Shown one piece after another: positions 15,186 through 27,395 of a stretch of DNA of 64,000 nt. The stretch is from positions 1 through 64,000 of the forward strand of contig NZ_NEGZ01000031.1 of NCBI RefSeq assembly GCF_002127585.1, given 5' to 3'. Each line of letters opens with the position of its first letter. Position 1 is the first letter of the stretch. Made by a program: the position numbers and the translations under genes. Source of the DNA: Janthinobacterium sp. GW458P. GTDB taxonomy: Bacteria > Pseudomonadota > Gammaproteobacteria > Burkholderiales > Burkholderiaceae_D. The notes under the pieces were generated by a model. It did not search any database. It was not told where the DNA came from and was given only the letters and a program-made list of their open reading frames with translations.

Positions 15186-15710
15186 ATGAAACTAAAATCA
15201 CTCATCGCAGCGGCAGTACTGAGCGCTGCTTCCATCGGCAGCGCCAGCGCCACCGCCTACGTGGTCAACCTCGTCAATACCACGGGCAATCTGTGGACCA
15301 GCGGTTTCAACGCCGTGCCCAGCCCGCTTGGCGACTTCACGGATACCTTCACGTTCACACCGAACGCGATCTTCGGCTCCACCGCGCAAGCCTTCCTGGC
15401 CAACCTGTCCGTCACGGGCACGGACAGCTCTTCCATCCACTTCACCGCTGCCGACCTGAACGGCATAGGACTGACCGGCTTTGGCGGACCTACCGTCTTT
15501 GGCTATGCCCAAGGCGAAGTCCTGGCGCCGACGAGCATCCTGTTCAATGGCCCGCTGGTCCTCACCGTCATGGGCAACACCAAGGGCGGCAGCTATGGCG
15601 GCGTCTTCAACCTGAACCTGGCTCCCGTTCCTGAACCGGAAACCTATGGCATGCTGCTGGCAGGCCTGGGCATACTCGGCTTCCTGGCGCGACGCCGCAA
15701 GCAATCTTGA
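15186..15710 (+). CDS. FxDxF-type PEP-CTERM exported protein
   Basis: This 174-residue protein has a signal peptide (cleavage probably after ASA near residue 22). Its C-terminus is a classic PEP-CTERM sorting tail: VPEPETYG, a hydrophobic helix LLAGLGILGFLA and an RRRKQS basic end. Such tails are recognised by exosortase (EpsH), which cuts at the motif. The segment DFTDTFTF early in the mature part is the signature of the FxDxF subfamily, common in Oxalobacteraceae. The body is low-complexity, rich in Gly, Thr and Ser, with no cysteine or enzymatic motif. It is probably a surface or matrix protein. No exosortase gene is in the window. Confidence 0.87.
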   Translation: MKLKSLIAAAVLSAASIGSASATAYVVNLVNTTGNLWTSGFNAVPSPLGDFTDTFTFTPNAIFGSTAQAFLANLSVTGTDSSSIHFTAADLNGIGLTGFGGPTVFGYAQGEVLAPTSILFNGPLVLTVMGNTKGGSYGGVFNLNLAPVPEPETYGMLLAGLGILGFLARRRKQS

Positions 15711-19570: not shown

Positions 19571-20401
19571 ATGATGAAGCGAGTATCCCTGGCTGCGGCC
19601 CTGACAGTCATGCTGGCCTGTGGCGGCAGCGGCGCGGCCCTGGCCGCCGATGCAGGTGACGCGGCCCTGAAGGCGGCCATTGGCGGCAGTGCGCGCACGC
19701 CAGCCAACGTGACGCGCGACAGCGCCCGCCACCCGTATGAAACGCTGACGTTCTTCGGCATCAAGCCGAGCATGACAGTGGTGGAACTGGCGCCCGGTGG
19801 CGGCTGGTACACGGAGATCCTGGCGCCTTATCTGCGCGAGCATGGCAAGCTGATCGCCGCCGGCAATGACCCGCAGTCAAGCAGCGAAGGCGCGCGCAAG
19901 GGCGCCGCGCGCTTCCAGCAAAAACTCGACGCCAATCCGGCCGCTTTCGGCAAAGTGGAAATCGGCGCCTTCGCGCCCCCCGCCACCTACCGTATCGCGC
20001 CCAGGGGCACGGCCGACATGGTACTTACCTTCCGCAATATCCACAACTGGATACCGATCGGCGAAGCGGGCATGCAGGCCCTGTTCAAGCAAGTCTATGA
20101 CAGCCTGAAACCGGGCGGCGTCTTCGGCGTCGTCGAGCACCGCCTGCCCGCCAGCAAGGTGCAGGATGCCACGGCCAGCAGCGGCTACATGCACGAAGCG
20201 TACGTGATCAAGCTGGCTGAAGGCGCAGGCTTCAAGCTGGCGGCCAAATCGGAGATCAACGCCAATCCGCGAGACCATGCCGACCACCAGGGCGGCGTCT
20301 GGGCCCTGCCACCCACCTACGCCAACAAGGACGTGGAGCGCGACAAGTACACGGCCATCGGCGAGAGCGACCGCATGACCCTGAAGTTCGTCAAACCCTG
20401 A
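19571..20401 (+). CDS. Exported class I SAM-dependent methyltransferase-like protein
   Basis: This protein of about 276 residues has a clear signal peptide (MMKRVSLAAALTVMLACGG..., cleavage probably after ALA near residue 27) and a methyltransferase domain with the glycine motif VVELAPGGGWYTEIL, DMVLTFRNIHNW and LKPGGVFGVVEH. Exported methyltransferase folds are common in proteobacteria but poorly understood, since S-adenosylmethionine is not known in the periplasm. Four in-frame ATGs cluster at 19559-19576. GGAG at 19561-19564 favours 19571 or 19574. It is followed by convergent small-peptide genes. Confidence 0.75.
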   Translation: MMKRVSLAAALTVMLACGGSGAALAADAGDAALKAAIGGSARTPANVTRDSARHPYETLTFFGIKPSMTVVELAPGGGWYTEILAPYLREHGKLIAAGNDPQSSSEGARKGAARFQQKLDANPAAFGKVEIGAFAPPATYRIAPRGTADMVLTFRNIHNWIPIGEAGMQALFKQVYDSLKPGGVFGVVEHRLPASKVQDATASSGYMHEAYVIKLAEGAGFKLAAKSEINANPRDHADHQGGVWALPPTYANKDVERDKYTAIGESDRMTLKFVKP

Positions 20402-20435
20402 GTCACTAGAAAAGCCAATGGCGGCGGGCCGATAC

Positions 20436-20469
20436 GGCGCGCCCCAATGCCTTGTGCGCGCAGCGCGCC
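20436..20469. terminator. GC-rich hairpin between convergent genes (weak terminator candidate)
   Basis: GGCGCGC (20436-20442) pairs with GCGCGCC (20463-20469) just between the methyltransferase stop and the stop of the convergent small-peptide gene. No U-tract is present on either strand, so it may act as a weak or Rho-dependent boundary only. Confidence 0.3.
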
Positions 20470-20661
20470 TTAAAGGTAAATGCCGTACACGCCGCAAGAG
20501 CGCGAGACAAGCATGCACTGGCTCGCCGTGCCATTTTCGGTGCAGTCAATCAGGGCCTGCATGCACTCCCGGCGTGTCGGCTGCGCATACGCGGTGCTCA
20601 CGGCACCAGCCAAACCAACGGCGGCGCAGAAGACAAATACCGCCTTTTTCACATGGATCAT
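20470..20661 (-). CDS. Small secreted four-cysteine peptide, copy A
   Basis: This 63-residue gene product has a signal peptide (cleavage after AYA, residue 26), leaving a mature peptide of about 37 residues, QPTRRECMQALID onward. The mature part has four cysteines at 33, 40, 49 and 56 in the pattern C-x6-C-x8-C-x6-C, ending SCGVYGIYL. The start MIHVKKAVFVF follows a GGGAGTGGAATAAAA leader with a good ribosome-binding site. It is a clear paralogue of the gene 88 bp upstream, with the same signal, cysteine spacing and GVYGI end. I recognise no named family. The pattern suggests an alpha-hairpin held by two disulfides. The function is unknown. Confidence 0.75.
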   Translation of the reverse strand: MIHVKKAVFVFCAAVGLAGAVSTAYAQPTRRECMQALIDCTENGTASQCMLVSRSCGVYGIYL

Positions 20662-20749
20662 TTTTATTCCACTCCCAAAGAGTTGAGCCGATCTAGAAAC
20701 TAGTGAACTGGAAGATCACAACAGCGCGTGCACGCAGGCAGCAACACGC

Positions 20750-20944
20750 TCAGACGTGAATGCCGTACACGCCGCACAGGCGACGCACCAGCGCGCAGTC
20801 GTTTTCATTGCCATCGGCGAGACAGGAATCGCGGGCTTCCTCACACGTTTCACGCGACGGCAAGGCATATGCACTCGAACTGACGGCACCGGCGAAACCG
20901 ACAGCGGCACAGAAGACAACTACGGCTTTCTTGAAATTGATCAT
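20750..20944 (-). CDS. Small secreted four-cysteine peptide, copy B
   Basis: This 64-residue paralogue of the downstream gene begins MINFKKAVVVFCAAVGFAGA, with cleavage after AYA (residue 27). Cysteines at 34, 41, 50 and 57 again give C-x6-C-x8-C-x6-C, ending LCGVYGIHV. The mature part is more acidic (CEEARDSCLADGNENDC) than the basic copy A (TRRECMQ). The ATG at 20944 is chosen for the GGGATAAAA leader, nearly the same as in copy A; the frame is open 45 codons further, but that part does not resemble a signal peptide. The two genes probably form one transcript with copy B first. Residues shared across signal and mature parts show a tandem duplication followed by divergence. Confidence 0.75.
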   Translation of the reverse strand: MINFKKAVVVFCAAVGFAGAVSSSAYALPSRETCEEARDSCLADGNENDCALVRRLCGVYGIHV

Positions 20945-21170
20945 TTTTATCCCGTTAGCAAAAAAGTTCATCGTTATAAAAAACCAGGGCAGACCGCCAG
21001 CCGCCAACTTCCACCTATCGATAGACGTATAGCGCATAAAAATAGTAGCACCAAAGAAAGTTACCAAATACGCAAACAAGAAAACAAGATAACATTTTCA
21101 TTTCACGCCCTTTCATGGAATAAAAACCGGCCTGCGGCCATTCCGACTCCCACTTGCATGGAAAGGCGCG

Positions 21171-21201
21171 AAAAAAAACCGCAGGCCAGGCTGCGGTTTT
21201 T
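21171..21201 (-). terminator. Rho-independent terminator after the serine hydrolase gene
   Basis: AAACCGCAG (21176-21184) pairs with CTGCGGTTT (21191-21199) around a 6-nt loop. On the minus strand eight Us follow, 12 bases beyond the stop of the gene at 21213. The remainder of the 20945-21212 gap holds the peptide promoter region and a CTATCGATAG palindrome (21015-21024), with no convincing gene. Confidence 0.85.
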
Positions 21202-21212
21202 GTATCGACAGT

Positions 21213-22850
21213 TTATTTCTTCGCTTCCTTGGGCTTCACCGGCACCAGGCTCAAGTCCTGAAAGTCGTAGCTGAAGTCCGTCTCGGCCGACACGGGCGCC
21301 ATCTTCACCCGGTCGATACTGGCATCCGGGTTCAACGAAAACGTCACGTAGGCGTCGGCATTGAAGTTGCGCTCTTTCCAGCGCACGATGAAGGTGTCGT
21401 GCTGCCAGTGTTCCAGCTCGCCCGTCAGGTCCGGCGTGCGCGTAAAGCTGAGGATATGTTTTTTCCCTTCCGGCTTGATCACGACCTTGCCGTACCATGC
21501 GTCCTCATACTCGCCATCGTACGCGGCCAGCGGCAGCGACGGCTGCGATTTCGCCGCGCGCGCGCTCGACGCCTTGCCCTGCTTTTTCACTTCTTCCGCA
21601 TGCTGGTCCTGCTCCACCTTGGCCACCAGCGCCAGCCAGTCCGACGGCGCCGCCTGCAGGTAATGGTCGAGGATGCGCCATTGCAGCGCCGTCATCGAAC
21701 CGCCATTTTCCGCATTGGTGAGGATGGCCACGCCCAGTTTCGCTTCCGGCACCATCAGCACGCGCGAATAGAATCCCTGCAGCGCGCCGCCGTGCATGGC
21801 GACCTTCATGCCCTTGTAGTCGCGCAGCTGGAAGCCCAGGCCATACGCGCTGAAGTTCGGTTTCGTCGCGGCCAGCGCCGGCTTCGGCTCGGGAATCTTG
21901 ATCGGCGTTTGCGCGGTCCACATTTCACGGCCCTGCTTTTCGCTGAACAGGCGCGCTTCCTTGCCGTCCTTGCCCTGCACGCCGGCGATCTTGCCGCCGT
22001 CGAGCAGCACCATCATCCACTTGGCGATATCTTCCGCATTCGTGTTGATGCCGACGGCGCCCACCGCGTTCGGCACGGGCATCGACTTGACGGCGGCAAT
22101 CTTGCCGTCGATCTTGCTGTGCGCATGGGCGACGTCGGGATTACCCGCATTCTCGGCCAGGCTGGTGGTGGTGCCCGTCATGCCCAGCGGTGCCAGGATG
22201 CGCTCATGCATGGCCTCGCCCCAGCTTTTCCCCGCCTTGTCGGCGATGATCTTGCCGGCCACGATGTACAGCAGGTTATCGTAGGCATAGCTGTTGCGAA
22301 AACTCGTGGCCGGACGGATGTAGCGCAGTTTCTCGATGATCTCGTCGGTGCTGAAGGTGGTAGTCGGCCACCACAGCAAGTCGCCCGCACCCAGGCCCAG
22401 GCCGCTGCGGTGCGTCAGCAAATCACGGATGGTCATGGCGCCCGTCACGTAGGAATCGTGCATCTGGAAACCGGGCAGGTGCTTGGTGACGGGATCGTCC
22501 CAGGCCAGCTTGCCGTCGTCGACCAGCATGGCCAGCGCAGCGGCCGTAAAACCCTTCGAATTCGATGCCACTTCAAACAAGGTCTGCGCATCGACGGCGG
22601 CCGGTTCGCCCAGCTTGCGCACACCAAAGCCCTTGGCGGTGACGACCTTGCCGTCCTTGACGATGGCGATCGCCATGCCGGGCACGTCGAACACTGTCAG
22701 GGCGGTGGCGACGTCGCGCTCAAGATCGAAGGCAGGCGCAGGCACCGGCGCTGCGGCAACGACGGGTACTGCATCGGCTGCCAGCGCCGGCACGGCGATG
22801 CTGGAAAACGCCAGCACGATGGCGGCGGCGAGACGGTTCATGGTATGCAT
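21213..22850 (-). CDS. Exported serine hydrolase of the class C beta-lactamase family
   Basis: This 545-residue protein has a signal peptide (cleavage after ALA, residue 24) and a beta-lactamase/penicillin-binding fold. It has the nucleophile Ser96 with Lys99 in ASNSKGFT, the YDN triad (YAYDNLL) and the third-motif HGG (AMHGGALQGF). The C-terminal 130 residues form a DUF3471-like barrel. Proteins of this plan are mostly esterases, D-aminopeptidases or peptide hydrolases rather than antibiotic-resistance enzymes. The M1 aminopeptidase gene ends 22 bp upstream, so the two are very likely cotranscribed and may work together on peptides in the periplasm. Confidence 0.88.
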   Translation of the reverse strand: MHTMNRLAAAIVLAFSSIAVPALAADAVPVVAAAPVPAPAFDLERDVATALTVFDVPGMAIAIVKDGKVVTAKGFGVRKLGEPAAVDAQTLFEVASNSKGFTAAALAMLVDDGKLAWDDPVTKHLPGFQMHDSYVTGAMTIRDLLTHRSGLGLGAGDLLWWPTTTFSTDEIIEKLRYIRPATSFRNSYAYDNLLYIVAGKIIADKAGKSWGEAMHERILAPLGMTGTTTSLAENAGNPDVAHAHSKIDGKIAAVKSMPVPNAVGAVGINTNAEDIAKWMMVLLDGGKIAGVQGKDGKEARLFSEKQGREMWTAQTPIKIPEPKPALAATKPNFSAYGLGFQLRDYKGMKVAMHGGALQGFYSRVLMVPEAKLGVAILTNAENGGSMTALQWRILDHYLQAAPSDWLALVAKVEQDQHAEEVKKQGKASSARAAKSQPSLPLAAYDGEYEDAWYGKVVIKPEGKKHILSFTRTPDLTGELEHWQHDTFIVRWKERNFNADAYVTFSLNPDASIDRVKMAPVSAETDFSYDFQDLSLVPVKPKEAKK

Positions 22851-22872: not shown

Positions 22873-24732
22873 TCAATGCGCTTGCGCGGCCATCAATTTA
22901 TCAACGCTTTCCTGCGTCACCGGGTGGTAGCGTTCGCGCGCCTGCGCGTACACCTCCTTGGCCCAGACATGGCCTTGCGGCGTCTTCATCAAGGCGCTGT
23001 ACAGGGGCACGACGAACTTCTGGCGGCCCACGCTCAGCAGGAATGCCTGCAAAGGCTGCCGCACGTCGTAGCCGGCGTTCACGGAGGCCAGATAGAAGCG
23101 GTACGCCACTTCATTGTTGCCGCTCTTGCCCACGCCGTAGACCTGGTCCAGTTCGCGCAATTGCGCCGCGCTGGCCTTGTTGTTGACATCGTTCAGGAAA
23201 TGCATCGATTCGATGGCGATCCACTTGTCCATGCCCAGGTCTTTCGTCGCCAGTTCACCTTTCAGCCAGGCGTCGCGGTGCTGGTCGAGCAGCGCCAGGC
23301 GTGGCGAGACGACGCGCTGTGCGCTGGCCGGCACGCCCGTGCCATACAGCCATTCATCGAGTTCCGCTTGCGGCATCACGTCCGGATGCTGGGTCAGCAG
23401 GTTCTTGCGCAGATAGGCGATGAACTGTTCCGTCGTGACGCTCTGGAACGCATGCTGGTCGAACCAGCCGCGCAGGAAAGGATCGAACACGGCGCGGCCC
23501 GCGCGGCGCTCCATGGTGGCCAGGAACCATGCGCCTTTCGGGTAGATGATGCCGTCGTCCGTGTACGTTTCCGCGGGATTGGCATCCGCATCGCGCGTGA
23601 CCAGCGCCGTTTTCGCGGCCGGCAATTCGCGGATCGAGGCGGCCAGTTCTTCCTGGTCGACCTGCACGCCCATCTGCGCCACTTCGCTGCCATACAGCTG
23701 CTCGACGATGCGCGTCGTGACGTACGTGGTGAAGCCTTCGTTGAGCCACATATGCTTCCACGACGCGTTGGTGACCAGGTTGCCAGACCACGAGTGGGCC
23801 AGTTCATGCGCAATCAGGTCAACCAGGCTGCGGTCGCCCGCGATCATGGTCGGCGTAAGGAAGGTCAGGCGCGGATTTTCCATGCCGCCGTAGGGGAACG
23901 ATGGCGGCAGCACGATCATGTCGTAGCGCCCCCAGCCATACGGACCGTACAGCGCTTCGGCTGCCTGGATCATCTTTTCCGTATCGGCCAGCTCGTATTC
24001 AGCCGCTTTGATACGCGGCGGTTCCGCATACACAGCGGAACGAGGGCCGAGTTTGCGCACTTCCAGTTCGCCGATGGCAATGGCCAGCAGGTACGAGGGA
24101 ATCGGCTGGGGCATCCTGAATTTCCAGCCGCCCTTGCCGGTCGCCTTCTCGTCGTTCTCGGCGCTCATCACGACGCGCATACCCGCTGGCGCATCGATGC
24201 GCGCGCTATATGTAAAACGCACGGCCGGCGTATCCTGCGATGGCACCCACGAGCGGGCGTTGATGCTTTGCGACTGGCTGAACATGAAAGGCAGCTTGCC
24301 CGACATGGTTTGCTGCGGCGTGAGCCACTGCAGCGCGATGGCGTTCGGGGCCGTGTGATAGTAGACGCGCACCTTGCCCGGCTGGCCCGTGGTGGTGATG
24401 CGCAGTGCCTGGCCCTTTTCCGGATCGGCCTTGTCCAGCTGGTACGGCGCCATCTGCCATGCGCCGCGCTTGTCCTGCACCTGCACCTTCGCGATCGACA
24501 GGTCGCGCGTATCGAGCACCAGGGTGCGCGCCGCCGGATCGATCCAGTTCAAGGACAGCTCGGCATAGCCGGACAGGGTCTTTTGCTTGAAATCGGCTTT
24601 CAGGTCCAGCTGCAGGTCGCGCGTGCGCACCTGGTCGTAGCGCGCGTAGCTGAGGGGATCGGCGTGCGCGGCCAGGGTCGCCTGGCAAAGTAGCGCACAG
24701 CCCAGCGCGCGCAGGAAGGTCATAGTTTGCAT
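22873..24732 (-). CDS. Exported M1-family zinc aminopeptidase
   Basis: This enzyme removes N-terminal residues from peptides. The 619-residue protein has a signal peptide (MQTMTFLRALGCALLCQATLA...), the exopeptidase motif YGGMENPRL, and the zinc site His309-Glu310-x2-His313 with Glu332 (HELAHSW, 18 residues, then WLNEGF). The C-terminal helical domain resembles LTA4 hydrolase or cold-active aminopeptidase. It is followed after 22 bp by the serine hydrolase and separated from the upstream M1 gene by a terminator. The first ATG (24732) or the one three codons later could be used. Secretion distinguishes it from cytosolic PepN. Confidence 0.92.
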   Translation of the reverse strand: MQTMTFLRALGCALLCQATLAAHADPLSYARYDQVRTRDLQLDLKADFKQKTLSGYAELSLNWIDPAARTLVLDTRDLSIAKVQVQDKRGAWQMAPYQLDKADPEKGQALRITTTGQPGKVRVYYHTAPNAIALQWLTPQQTMSGKLPFMFSQSQSINARSWVPSQDTPAVRFTYSARIDAPAGMRVVMSAENDEKATGKGGWKFRMPQPIPSYLLAIAIGELEVRKLGPRSAVYAEPPRIKAAEYELADTEKMIQAAEALYGPYGWGRYDMIVLPPSFPYGGMENPRLTFLTPTMIAGDRSLVDLIAHELAHSWSGNLVTNASWKHMWLNEGFTTYVTTRIVEQLYGSEVAQMGVQVDQEELAASIRELPAAKTALVTRDADANPAETYTDDGIIYPKGAWFLATMERRAGRAVFDPFLRGWFDQHAFQSVTTEQFIAYLRKNLLTQHPDVMPQAELDEWLYGTGVPASAQRVVSPRLALLDQHRDAWLKGELATKDLGMDKWIAIESMHFLNDVNNKASAAQLRELDQVYGVGKSGNNEVAYRFYLASVNAGYDVRQPLQAFLLSVGRQKFVVPLYSALMKTPQGHVWAKEVYAQARERYHPVTQESVDKLMAAQAH

Positions 24733-24816
24733 GGTCGTCTTTTGAATGATTTGCGAAAGCCCCGGTCCGTGTGCGCCGGGGCGTCGCGCAGAATAGCACT
24801 TCCGGCGCTGGCCGGC

Positions 24817-24845
24817 AGAAAAAAGCGCCGGGCTGGCCGGCGCTG
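24817..24845 (-). terminator. Rho-independent terminator after the larger M1 peptidase gene
   Basis: AGCGCCGG (24824-24831), loop GCTGG, CCGGCGCT (24837-24844), with seven As at 24818-24824 that read as a U-tract on the minus strand. It lies 7 bases after the stop of the gene at 24851 and separates it from the downstream peptidase operon. Confidence 0.85.
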
Positions 24846-24850
24846 CTTCC

Positions 24851-27244
24851 CTATTTCGTCTCCGGCCTGGCCTCCGGCTTTGGCTCGGACGCCTTCAGCG
24901 GTGTTTTGACATCCTTCATCAGGTTGTTCTTGTCGCGGTCCAGCTTGAACAGTTCCAGGCGCGATGGCGTGATTTTCCTCGGCCAGGAATTATTGCTGGT
25001 GTCGATATCAGCCGTCTCCCAGTACGGGTCCTGCACCAGCCCCACCATCGGTTCGTCCGCGATGATCACCTTGCTGATCTTGTGCGGCGCGTAGCGCCAC
25101 ACTTCGGCCGGCACGCGCTCGGTGATTTTCCTGCCGCTTTGCAGTTCGATTTCCAGGATCAGCGGCATCACCAGACCGCCGAGATTCGAAAAATCGACCA
25201 GGTACAAATGCTTGCCCATGTTGTGCTGTTCCAGCAGTTTACGCTCCCATGGTTCCAGCGTTTCCTGCTCTTCCGCATAGCTGTTGCGGTCCTTGTTGGT
25301 GACCGTGAACTCATCGTGCTGGTTATAGAAATCCTTCAGCGCAGGATCGGTATCCACCTTCTTCGGCAGCGCCTTGTTGCGCTGGTCCGAGATCGAGATA
25401 GGCTGCGCCGCCTTCTGCGCCTTCTTCCACGCCTTTTCCGTTTCCGGATTCTTTGTACTCACGCCATATTCGCTGATGCCGTCGATGCTGATGTCGACCG
25501 CGTCGGTGGTGTAGAACCAGCCGCGCCAGAACCAGTCCAGGTCCGTGCCGGAAGCGTCTTCCATGGTGCGGAAAAAATCGGCCGGCGTCGGGCGCTTGAA
25601 TTTCCAGCGCAAGGCGTACTGCTTGAAGGCGAAGTCGAACAGTTCGCGCCCGAGGATGGTTTCGCGCAGGATATTGAGGGCGGTGGCAGGCTTGTCGTAG
25701 GCATTCGCCGTAAACTGCAGCAAGGATTCTGAATTGGTCATGATGGGCACCTGGTTCTGACTGCGCATGTAGTCGACGATCTTGCGCGGCTCGCCATTCC
25801 AGGACGGGAAATGCTCTTCCCACGCCTGCTCGGCCAGGTACTGCAGGAAGGAATTGAGGCCCTCGTCCATCCACGTCCACTGGCGCTCGTCCGAGTTGAC
25901 GATCATGGGGAAATAATTGTGCCCCACTTCATGGATGATCACGCCGATCAGGTCATATTTGGTCGTCTTCGAATACGTAATTTCCCCCGTCTTCTTGTCC
26001 TTCACGGGGCGCCCGCCATTAAACGCAATCATCGGATACTCCATGCCGCCCACGGCGCCATTGACGGAAATCGCGTTCGGATACGGATAGTCGAAACTGT
26101 ATTTGTTGTACTGCTCGATCGCATGCGCGACGGCGCGCGTGCTGTACTGCTGCCACAGCGGATTACCCTCGTTCGGATAGTAGGACATGGCCATTACGCG
26201 CTTGCCGCCGCTATTCAAACCCTGCGCATCCCAGATAAACTTGCGGCTCGATGCCCACGCCACGTCGCGCACATTGGCCGCCTTGAAGTGCCAGGTTTTC
26301 ATGCCCGCCGCCCGGCCCTTTTCCGCCGCCAGCGCCTCGGCGGGCGTGATCACCAGCAGCGGCGTAGCGCTGTTTTTCGCCCTCGCCAGGCGTTCGCGCT
26401 GCGCCGTGCTCAACACGGTGGCAGGATTTTGCAATTCTCCCGTGGCCGCCACCACATGATCGGCCGGCACCGTCAGATACAGCTCGTAATCGCCAAACTC
26501 CAGCGTGAATTCACCCGAGCCAAGAAACTGCTTATGCTGCCAACCGACGGCGTCATAGTAGGCGGCCATGCGCGGGAACCACTGCGCGATCTGGAAAATC
26601 GCGTTCTTGTCGTCTTCAAAATACTCATAGCCGGAGCGCTCGACCAGCACCTTCTGGTCATTGATCTGATACGACCAGTCGATATTGAACGTGATGCTCT
26701 GGCCGGGCGCCAGCGCCACCGGCAAATCGATGCGCAGCATGGTCTGGTTGACAACATACGGCAGCGGCTTGCCGCTGGCCGCTTTCACGGCGGTAAGCTT
26801 GAAGCCGCCGTCAAATTCGCGGCCCGCATGGATGGCCCGCAAGTCCTCGAACTTCAGCGCTTCTTCTTCGCTGCTACCCAACCAGGCCTGGCGCGAGGGC
26901 GCGCTCAGGACGCGGCGCTGGTCAGCGTCCTTGCGCAAGCCATTCTGGTCCAGTTGCAGCCACAAGTACGCGAGGCTGTCGGGCGAGCGATTATGGTAAG
27001 TAATCTGTTCGCTGGCAGTGATCTCGCGGCGCGCTTCGTCCAGCGTGGCGCGGATCACGTAATCGGCGCGCTGCTGCCAGTAAGCGTGGCCGGGCGCGCC
27101 CGATGCGGTGCGGTAGGCGTTCGGCGTGGGCAGCAGTTCTTCGAGCTGGCGGAACTTGTCGTCGAAAGGCGCGGCGGCGCACATGGCGGTCAAGGGGGAA
27201 ATCAAGGTCAGGCACAGGGCAAGCAAGCGGACAAGAACCGGCAT
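24851..27244 (-). CDS. Exported M1-family metallopeptidase (large form)
   Basis: This 797-residue exported protein has a signal peptide (MPVLVRLLALCLTLISPLTA), an N-terminal beta domain, the motif GGMEYPM, and zinc site His438-Glu439-x2-His442 with Glu461 (HEVGHNYFP ... WMDEGL). A long C-terminal part includes a charged helical segment (residues about 640-690) and beta sandwich. The ATG at 27244 has GGAA seven bases upstream. An ATG at 27256 and the longer open frame lack a good site. It is a paralogue of the gene downstream only at family level. The substrate is unknown. It diverges from the manganese riboswitch transcript. Confidence 0.87.
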   Translation of the reverse strand: MPVLVRLLALCLTLISPLTAMCAAAPFDDKFRQLEELLPTPNAYRTASGAPGHAYWQQRADYVIRATLDEARREITASEQITYHNRSPDSLAYLWLQLDQNGLRKDADQRRVLSAPSRQAWLGSSEEEALKFEDLRAIHAGREFDGGFKLTAVKAASGKPLPYVVNQTMLRIDLPVALAPGQSITFNIDWSYQINDQKVLVERSGYEYFEDDKNAIFQIAQWFPRMAAYYDAVGWQHKQFLGSGEFTLEFGDYELYLTVPADHVVAATGELQNPATVLSTAQRERLARAKNSATPLLVITPAEALAAEKGRAAGMKTWHFKAANVRDVAWASSRKFIWDAQGLNSGGKRVMAMSYYPNEGNPLWQQYSTRAVAHAIEQYNKYSFDYPYPNAISVNGAVGGMEYPMIAFNGGRPVKDKKTGEITYSKTTKYDLIGVIIHEVGHNYFPMIVNSDERQWTWMDEGLNSFLQYLAEQAWEEHFPSWNGEPRKIVDYMRSQNQVPIMTNSESLLQFTANAYDKPATALNILRETILGRELFDFAFKQYALRWKFKRPTPADFFRTMEDASGTDLDWFWRGWFYTTDAVDISIDGISEYGVSTKNPETEKAWKKAQKAAQPISISDQRNKALPKKVDTDPALKDFYNQHDEFTVTNKDRNSYAEEQETLEPWERKLLEQHNMGKHLYLVDFSNLGGLVMPLILEIELQSGRKITERVPAEVWRYAPHKISKVIIADEPMVGLVQDPYWETADIDTSNNSWPRKITPSRLELFKLDRDKNNLMKDVKTPLKASEPKPEARPETK

Positions 27245-27395
27245 GGCGCATTCCATCTGGGAGTCGTGGACAGAACTGCATTCTAAGTCGAGTCTGTTTG
27301 CAAATCGATCATTGTTGTGGAAGTCCCACACGCAGCACAGCGCCGGCGGCCAGTGGCACTGGCGCAGAAACAGGCATTGGCGTATGATGCGCCTC

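Follow-up and report, generated by a model that had tools for sequence, protein, structure and literature searches.

The window analysed here is a stretch of 64,000 nucleotides from Janthinobacterium sp. GW458P (positions 1 to 64,000 of NZ_NEGZ01000031.1, contig C82 of the 6.28-Mb genome; G, C and L numbers below denote genomes, contigs and loci, the own genome being G000). It carries two adjacent genes, A and B, for small exported peptides with four cysteines (4-Cys peptides). Both are genuine conserved genes, not products of chance, and they represent only a minor share of a wider set of peptides that is linked to a glutaredoxin encoded elsewhere in the genome. Across the Oxalobacteraceae the set comprises 4-Cys, six-cysteine (six-Cys) and twin C-x3-C hairpin peptides, whose genes stand alone or in arrays with as many as 24 members. 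Such a conserved set of exported cysteine-hairpin peptides with a co-inherited glutaredoxin is apparently undescribed, and among the works listed by searches of open-licence PubMed Central none appeared to concern these peptides.

Both genes lie on the minus strand in the order B, then A, with a gap of 88 bp:

20470..20661, minus strand: gene A, encoding the 63-residue precursor of a 4-Cys (C-x6-C-x8-C-x6-C) predicted hairpin peptide, supported by sequence, orthologs and the ratio of nonsynonymous to synonymous substitution rates (dN/dS)
20584..20661, minus strand: Sec-type signal peptide of A, 26 residues, with a K-K n-region and an AYA end; putative cleavage site placed by the AxA motif
20473..20583, minus strand: mature A, 37 residues, net charge 0; AlphaFold2 model with a predicted local distance difference test score (pLDDT) of 88.6 and helices at 5-18 and 21-33
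20750..20944, minus strand: gene B, encoding the 64-residue precursor of a 4-Cys predicted hairpin peptide, with its ATG at 20944, supported by sequence and dN/dS
20864..20944, minus strand: Sec-type signal peptide of B, 27 residues, with an AYA end and a putative cleavage site
20753..20863, minus strand: mature B, 37 residues, net charge -3; AlphaFold2 model with pLDDT 90.5 and helices at 5-18 and 21-34
20662..20749, minus strand: B-A intergenic stretch, 88 bp, with the Shine-Dalgarno-like stretch GGGAGTGG before A

No sigma-70 consensus promoter was found in 20380-21230. The two leaders share a K-K, a hydrophobic stretch and a terminal AYA, and the cysteines stand at positions 7, 14, 23 and 30 of both mature parts, which end in GVYGI plus two residues. 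The tandem exported peptides with identical C-x6-C-x8-C-x6-C spacing and a GVYGI end that a sequence-only reading had described are therefore present as claimed. Comparison of the two copies of the own genome gives an identity of 77% over the leader and 43% over the mature part. That reading had also called A basic and B acidic; the acidic character of B holds, with a net charge (K+R minus D+E) of -3 and a range of -2 to -3 over 11 sequences, but mature A is neutral, with a range of 0 to -1 over five sequences including its own.

AlphaFold2 predicted the helix pairs listed above; the alignment used for B had 10 rows, made up of the window and L093-L098 proteins only. The cysteines are symmetric about the turn in the 38-residue construct, where C8 faces C31 and C15 faces C24 (8+31 = 15+24 = 39), and this symmetry fits what nested staples require. 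Mature A and B are thus predicted two-helix hairpins, in line with the earlier proposal, and the cysteine positions allow a disulfide pairing that is probably nested, C7-C30 and C14-C23. A fold search with the B model against PDB and BFVD returned nothing at an expectation value (E) <=0.001; a hairpin of just two helices offers such a search little information.

We further examined how far the peptides extend beyond the strain. Protein and profile searches with whole precursors found relatives in Janthinobacterium and in other Oxalobacteraceae genera. At E<=0.01, matches to the 4-Cys profile came from 12 of the 44 genera in the sample, with the weakest among them judged chance, and an order-wide sample of 399 genomes gave no credible match except the own genome. 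At the A/B locus itself, the named relatives were Janthinobacterium in 6/6 loci. Orthologs of both genes are under purifying selection: pooled over pairwise comparisons (10 for A, 54 for B), the mature part has a dN/dS of 0.22 in A and 0.19 in B, in a sample that one genome entered twice (K2E3 and G325). In 25 aligned relatives only the columns of the four cysteines are invariant; the middle loop is variable, so that the spacing is not strictly x8; since most of these relatives were selected with the C-x6-C pattern, the invariance is partly a matter of choice. A third 4-Cys copy of the own genome lies at C84:34607-34792, beside what is presumably a GAPDH-like gene, and it has clustered neighbours in common with the copy-bearing loci of G228 (L092) and G067 (L091). 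Up to 16 candidates were scored per genome in the family samples, and copy numbers are lower bounds.

The peptides match no known family, as the sequence-only reading had supposed. Pfam and NCBIfam gave no match to A or B at E<=10, and Pfam, NCBIfam and PHROGs gave nothing credible for the peptides submitted; among the array peptides there was one Pfam match to Toxin_13 (neurotoxin B-IV-like) at E 0.075 and one to DUF7772 at E 0.02, both sub-threshold. The PHROGs matches of A to phrog_34573 (major head protein; E 0.0041) and of B to phrog_28451 (E 0.35) were judged chance. A phage or plasmid origin was rejected, as tblastn with B found no match in 50,697 phage and 72,556 plasmid records. A scan of viral_contigs with B found none; with one six-Cys peptide as query, matches of 14 residues turned up at two loci. 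Among solved structures no sequence matched A or B, and A1 and A6 matched a phosphodiesterase only, again judged chance.

Some of the 4-Cys profile matches fell into clusters, and three of these clusters proved to be arrays of six-Cys peptides. Tandem same-strand arrays hold 24 genes in G375, 22 in G235 (strict filter) and 17 in G314, each gene with a similar leader and six cysteines, mostly in the palindromic order C-x3-C-x6-C-x7..13-C-x6-C-x3-C, which is the framework of the window peptides plus one outer staple. A six-Cys profile built from 28 peptides matched in 59/392 Oxalobacteraceae genomes and 7/44 genera (E<=1e-4), and a class-wide sample of 274 genomes contained no match beyond the own genome, which carries six six-Cys genes (four at C118, one at C108 and one at C128) in addition to its three 4-Cys genes. 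Paralogs within an array have 50-52% of leader residues in common and only 16-18% of mature non-Cys residues. Orthologs between species, in turn, have a median identity of 87-90% and a mature dN/dS of 0.23, 0.19 and 0.16 in three comparisons (18, 16 and 15 pairs), and the ratio of nonsynonymous to synonymous differences per site (pN/pS) of the mature part exceeded 1 in none of the genes (0/18, 0/16 and 0/15). Ortholog conservation together with paralog divergence shows that each mature surface is distinct and kept. Most mature parts are acidic or neutral, net positive ones numbering 4/24, 1/22 and 1/17 in the three arrays.

The arrays also contain a glutaredoxin. In g40, a protein of 128 residues encoded inside the array belongs to the glutaredoxins (PF00462, E 1.4e-12) and bears a hydrophobic segment at its N-terminus; the array glutaredoxin likewise matches PF00462 at E 1.8e-13 and has such a segment. 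The own-genome ortholog, 57% identical to the g40 protein, is encoded at G000:C118:24223-24597, inside the own six-Cys array. A linker Y-x-E-G-N-[YF] is present in 10/13 of the glutaredoxin sequences inspected. The best NCBIfam match is to the YruB-type glutaredoxins (TIGR02196, E 4.4e-17); at 62.3 bits it stays below the family cut-off of 88.55, and the array protein differs in its hydrophobic segment and linker.

To determine its distribution, 240/392 family genomes were searched with the own-genome ortholog as query. Full-length glutaredoxin was found in 63/66 peptide-positive genomes versus 2/174 scored negative, and in both of these (G132 and G165) six-Cys peptides adjoin the glutaredoxin, here a distant one. 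Their peptides (L194, L195), C-x3-C-x6-C-x12-C-x6-C-x3-C with a lysine-containing loop, were missed by the six-Cys profile, so that the set is wider than counted. By class, the enzyme was present in 58/59 genomes positive for six-Cys peptides (E<=1e-4) and in 5/7 with 4-Cys matches only (E<=1e-5, weaker matches excluded; eight genomes of the negative set, G006, G015, G020, G031, G046, G093, G152 and G232, had 4-Cys matches at E 0.001-0.009). Fourteen negatives match the glutaredoxin domain alone; these were scored as genomes without the anchored enzyme. The association recurs within Janthinobacterium (26/26 peptide-positive versus 0/14 negative), g18 (8/8 versus 0/10) and g40 (18/18 versus 0/6); 4-Cys peptides in particular occur in 19/26 glutaredoxin-bearing Janthinobacterium genomes versus 0/14 others. 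The Fisher p-value for 58/59 versus 0/101 is 2.8e-43, with further values of 4.3e-11 and 5.5e-6, all of which serve only as a scale, relatedness being ignored.

The two kinds of gene are also neighbours. A hairpin peptide lies within 1 kb of 51/57 glutaredoxin genes with surroundings read and within 3.5 kb of 53/57. These genes are a subset of the matches; 11 lie in loci that had been retrieved on account of their arrays, and the Janthinobacterium genes, 24 in number, are close relatives. Among the 46 not retrieved for arrays, a peptide was within 1 kb in 40. By comparison, loci with the glutaredoxin domain only had a hairpin peptide in 0/9. Twin C-x6-C 4-Cys peptides of the window type adjoin the glutaredoxin in G223, G251 and G369, and C-x3-C-x13-C-x3-C peptides do so in four g32 loci; the glutaredoxin thus accompanies all three staple patterns. 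In five Janthinobacterium array loci (L139, L142, L143, L144 and L151), it was the only gene called between peptides. Because of this, the genes for an M48 peptidase, a GDSL lipase and a LysR protein in the g40 array were rejected as core components. The M48-type peptidase and GDSL lipase genes there (L073:5661-6410 and L073:8583-9878) may be processing candidates or passengers.

Several observations weigh against the reading favoured below. Three genomes have peptide matches and no full-length glutaredoxin: G240, the six-Cys exception, whose peptide match reaches only E 2.4e-5, and the 4-Cys-only genomes G234 and G361. In G170, counted as lacking the enzyme, a near-full-length match is present but weak (E 1.3e-13), and there are no peptide matches. 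The co-distribution counts ignore genome relatedness. Six of the 57 glutaredoxin genes have no filtered peptide within 1 kb: in L204 and L214 a peptide appears when the limit is widened to 3.5 kb, in L205 and L206 it does not, and L211 and L212 were scored as misses despite a 4-Cys profile match ~260 bp from the glutaredoxin, the L211 peptide being a C-x2-C-x6-C-x7-C-x9-C-x2-C variant. The window itself contains no glutaredoxin, so the link for A and B rests on genome-level co-occurrence and on their relatives. Finally, when only the mature parts are compared, there is no match between the 4-Cys profile and the six-Cys profile (hhalign probability 4%). Cross matches of whole precursors reach E 1.4e-6 to 1.5e-3 with the leader included; the term set therefore does not establish common descent of the mature 4-Cys and six-Cys parts.

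On balance, we favour the reading that the exported hairpins are stapled or edited by the anchored glutaredoxin and act as stable miniprotein binders, which is probable given the co-distribution, co-location and selection described above. The A and B precursors would be exported by Sec and cleaved by signal peptidase at AYA, and the 37-residue chain would fold into two antiparallel helices held by nested C7-C30 and C14-C23 staples. The C-x-x-C domain of the glutaredoxin is presumably periplasmic, judging from the positive-inside rule applied to its N-terminal segment. There the dedicated enzyme may make or proofread the staples, including those of the unlinked A and B, possibly with periplasmic glutathione. 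The oxidised hairpins would then bind through a conserved surface particular to each paralog, whether within the envelope or outside the cell. A fuller proposal, which we advance with more hesitation, is that the glutaredoxin staples or edits a Sec-exported hairpin repertoire with two or three nested disulfide rungs, each peptide having its own target, as a bacterial ribosomal counterpart of the hairpin arsenals of plants and venoms.

The nearest working analogues are bacteriocins of the glycocin F type (sublancin, glycocin F and thermoglycocin), and they raise the alternative that the peptides are bacteriocin-like or anti-eukaryote hairpins that harm competitors or predators, with the glutaredoxin as maturation enzyme. 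Thermoglycocin is reported to have two helices, an eight-residue loop and the nested disulfides Cys7-Cys30 and Cys14-Cys23, with thioredoxin-like isomerases in its cluster (PMC12457901), so that its cysteine numbering equals that of mature A and B. The (C-x6-C)2 framework and two helices of glycocins are matched by the spacing and predicted helices of A and B, and glycocin clusters encode thioredoxin-like thiol-disulfide enzymes (PMC12457901 and PMC6405829), which offer, by analogy, a precedent for the role suggested for the glutaredoxin. The differences are several. Glycocin leaders are cut at a GG or GK site by a C39 peptidase, whereas the A and B leaders are hydrophobic, Sec-type and end in AxA. 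No glycosyltransferase or C39/ABC exporter was found among 9 of the 10 genes called around A and B or among 12 array-locus proteins, in a search confined to these neighbourhoods. The 4-Cys relatives also have no conserved Ser/Cys in the loop, unlike glycocins. Instead of thioredoxin/DsbB-type enzymes there is a membrane-anchored glutaredoxin that is a genome-level companion outside the window, and the hosts are Gram-negative Oxalobacteraceae, whose arrays reach 24 genes and whose six-Cys form adds an outer staple. As two features that define glycocins, a glycosyltransferase and a C39/ABC exporter together with the matching leader, are missing from what was scanned, we did not file the peptides as glycocins.

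A bacteriocin-like function would also suit the make-up of the tandem arrays, in which leaders are conserved while mature parts diverge, and the weak resemblance to hairpin toxins of animals. Nemertean neurotoxin B-IV (PDB 1VIB) is a disulfide-cross-linked helical hairpin, according to PMC6410017. Both six-Cys profiles matched it without significance (E 0.85; mature-only 0.68), and the mature-only profile matched the sea anemone U-actitoxin-Aeq5a (6UX5) at E 0.22, likewise not significant; two OCRL-1 chains outscored the toxins in the mature-only search (E 0.10-0.11), and the likeness is one of framework only. Plant alpha-hairpinins are small antiparallel helix-loop-helix peptides whose cysteines are sometimes the sole conserved residues (PMC11591084). 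Their 4C motif is fitted by the C-x3-C-x13-C-x3-C peptides beside the g32 glutaredoxin; the core C-x3-C-x(4-20)-C-x3-C is absent from A and B, and the six-Cys form is x3/x6 rather than x3/x3. No sequence match to alpha-hairpinins was found. Several points speak against a bacteriocin-like function. The charges, mostly acidic or neutral, and the absence of positive selection within the arrays do not suit classical cationic antimicrobials; the scanned neighbours include no obvious immunity gene; and up to 24 different adjacent peptides would require an equal number of immunities. We therefore regard this explanation as unlikely.

Alternatively, the peptides could be a periplasmic redox pool, dithiol/disulfide buffers or shuttles cycled by the glutaredoxin, with the helices only positioning the thiols. 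Close co-occurrence with the enzyme is consistent with this, and so are the cysteines as sole invariant columns across paralogs, in peptides that were themselves chosen by cysteine pattern. In addition, the E. coli periplasm contains glutathione, and a glutaredoxin-like coupling to this pool has been proposed (PMC10344953). However, each paralog is kept between species at the identity and dN/dS given above although the paralogs differ almost entirely, which would be needless for a bulk pool; conserved paralog-specific surfaces point to specific partners rather than to a thiol pool, and make this function rather improbable.

A role as ligands of copper, zinc or mercury, with the glutaredoxin keeping the thiols reduced, would accord with the high cysteine content and with a gene for a di-haem cytochrome c peroxidase/MauG protein that precedes the array in both G000 and G092 and is itself preceded in G092 by a TonB-plug protein (Pfam), with similar-looking genes in the G109 and G146 maps. 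In the G329 map (L144) the array is not preceded by this gene pair, which hence is not a strict partner; the 4-Cys set has no conserved CxxC-type motif, and its cysteine positions suit helix-to-helix staples, all of which renders metal binding very improbable. An obligate complementary pair of A and B, a dimer of opposite charges like a two-peptide bacteriocin, is hardly credible: the genes are 88 bp apart and side by side in G000, G092, G146 and G136, but A is neutral, B lacks an adjacent A in 5/10 Janthinobacterium genomes (G005, G168, G179, G256 and G329) and A stands without B in G285, so the pair is not obligate. Overall, the interpretation given in the sequence-only reading is partly supported.

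Some further gene neighbours were recorded. The MauG gene of G000 precedes the six-Cys/glutaredoxin array at C118 (L139:11135-12313, minus strand), and the TonB-plug and MauG genes precede that of L142 (8624-12353, minus strand). A second six-Cys location is present in L147 and L148 (G144 and G309, the latter with three glutaredoxin copies) and in L140 (G000:C108), near genes that we take to be the ribosomal rpsJ, rplW and rplV. Within the window, two different adjoining M1-family peptidase genes lie beside a beta-lactamase-family gene (22873-27331, minus strand), and a PEP-CTERM protein gene (PF07589) is found at 15186-15710, plus strand. A functional link of A and B to the methyltransferase-like, beta-lactamase-family and M1 peptidase genes of the window was not adopted, because other family members sit elsewhere (for example the C84 copy of G000).

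If the stapled-binder reading is correct, these bacteria would hold a natural library of very small, self-standing disulfide-stapled helical hairpins together with a genetically paired redox enzyme. The hosts are free-living, culturable bacteria, and the 57 glutaredoxin genes with read surroundings provide a starting list. The glutaredoxin as a dedicated periplasmic folding enzyme, the targets of the diversified surfaces and the use of the scaffold as a binder could thus be tested together.
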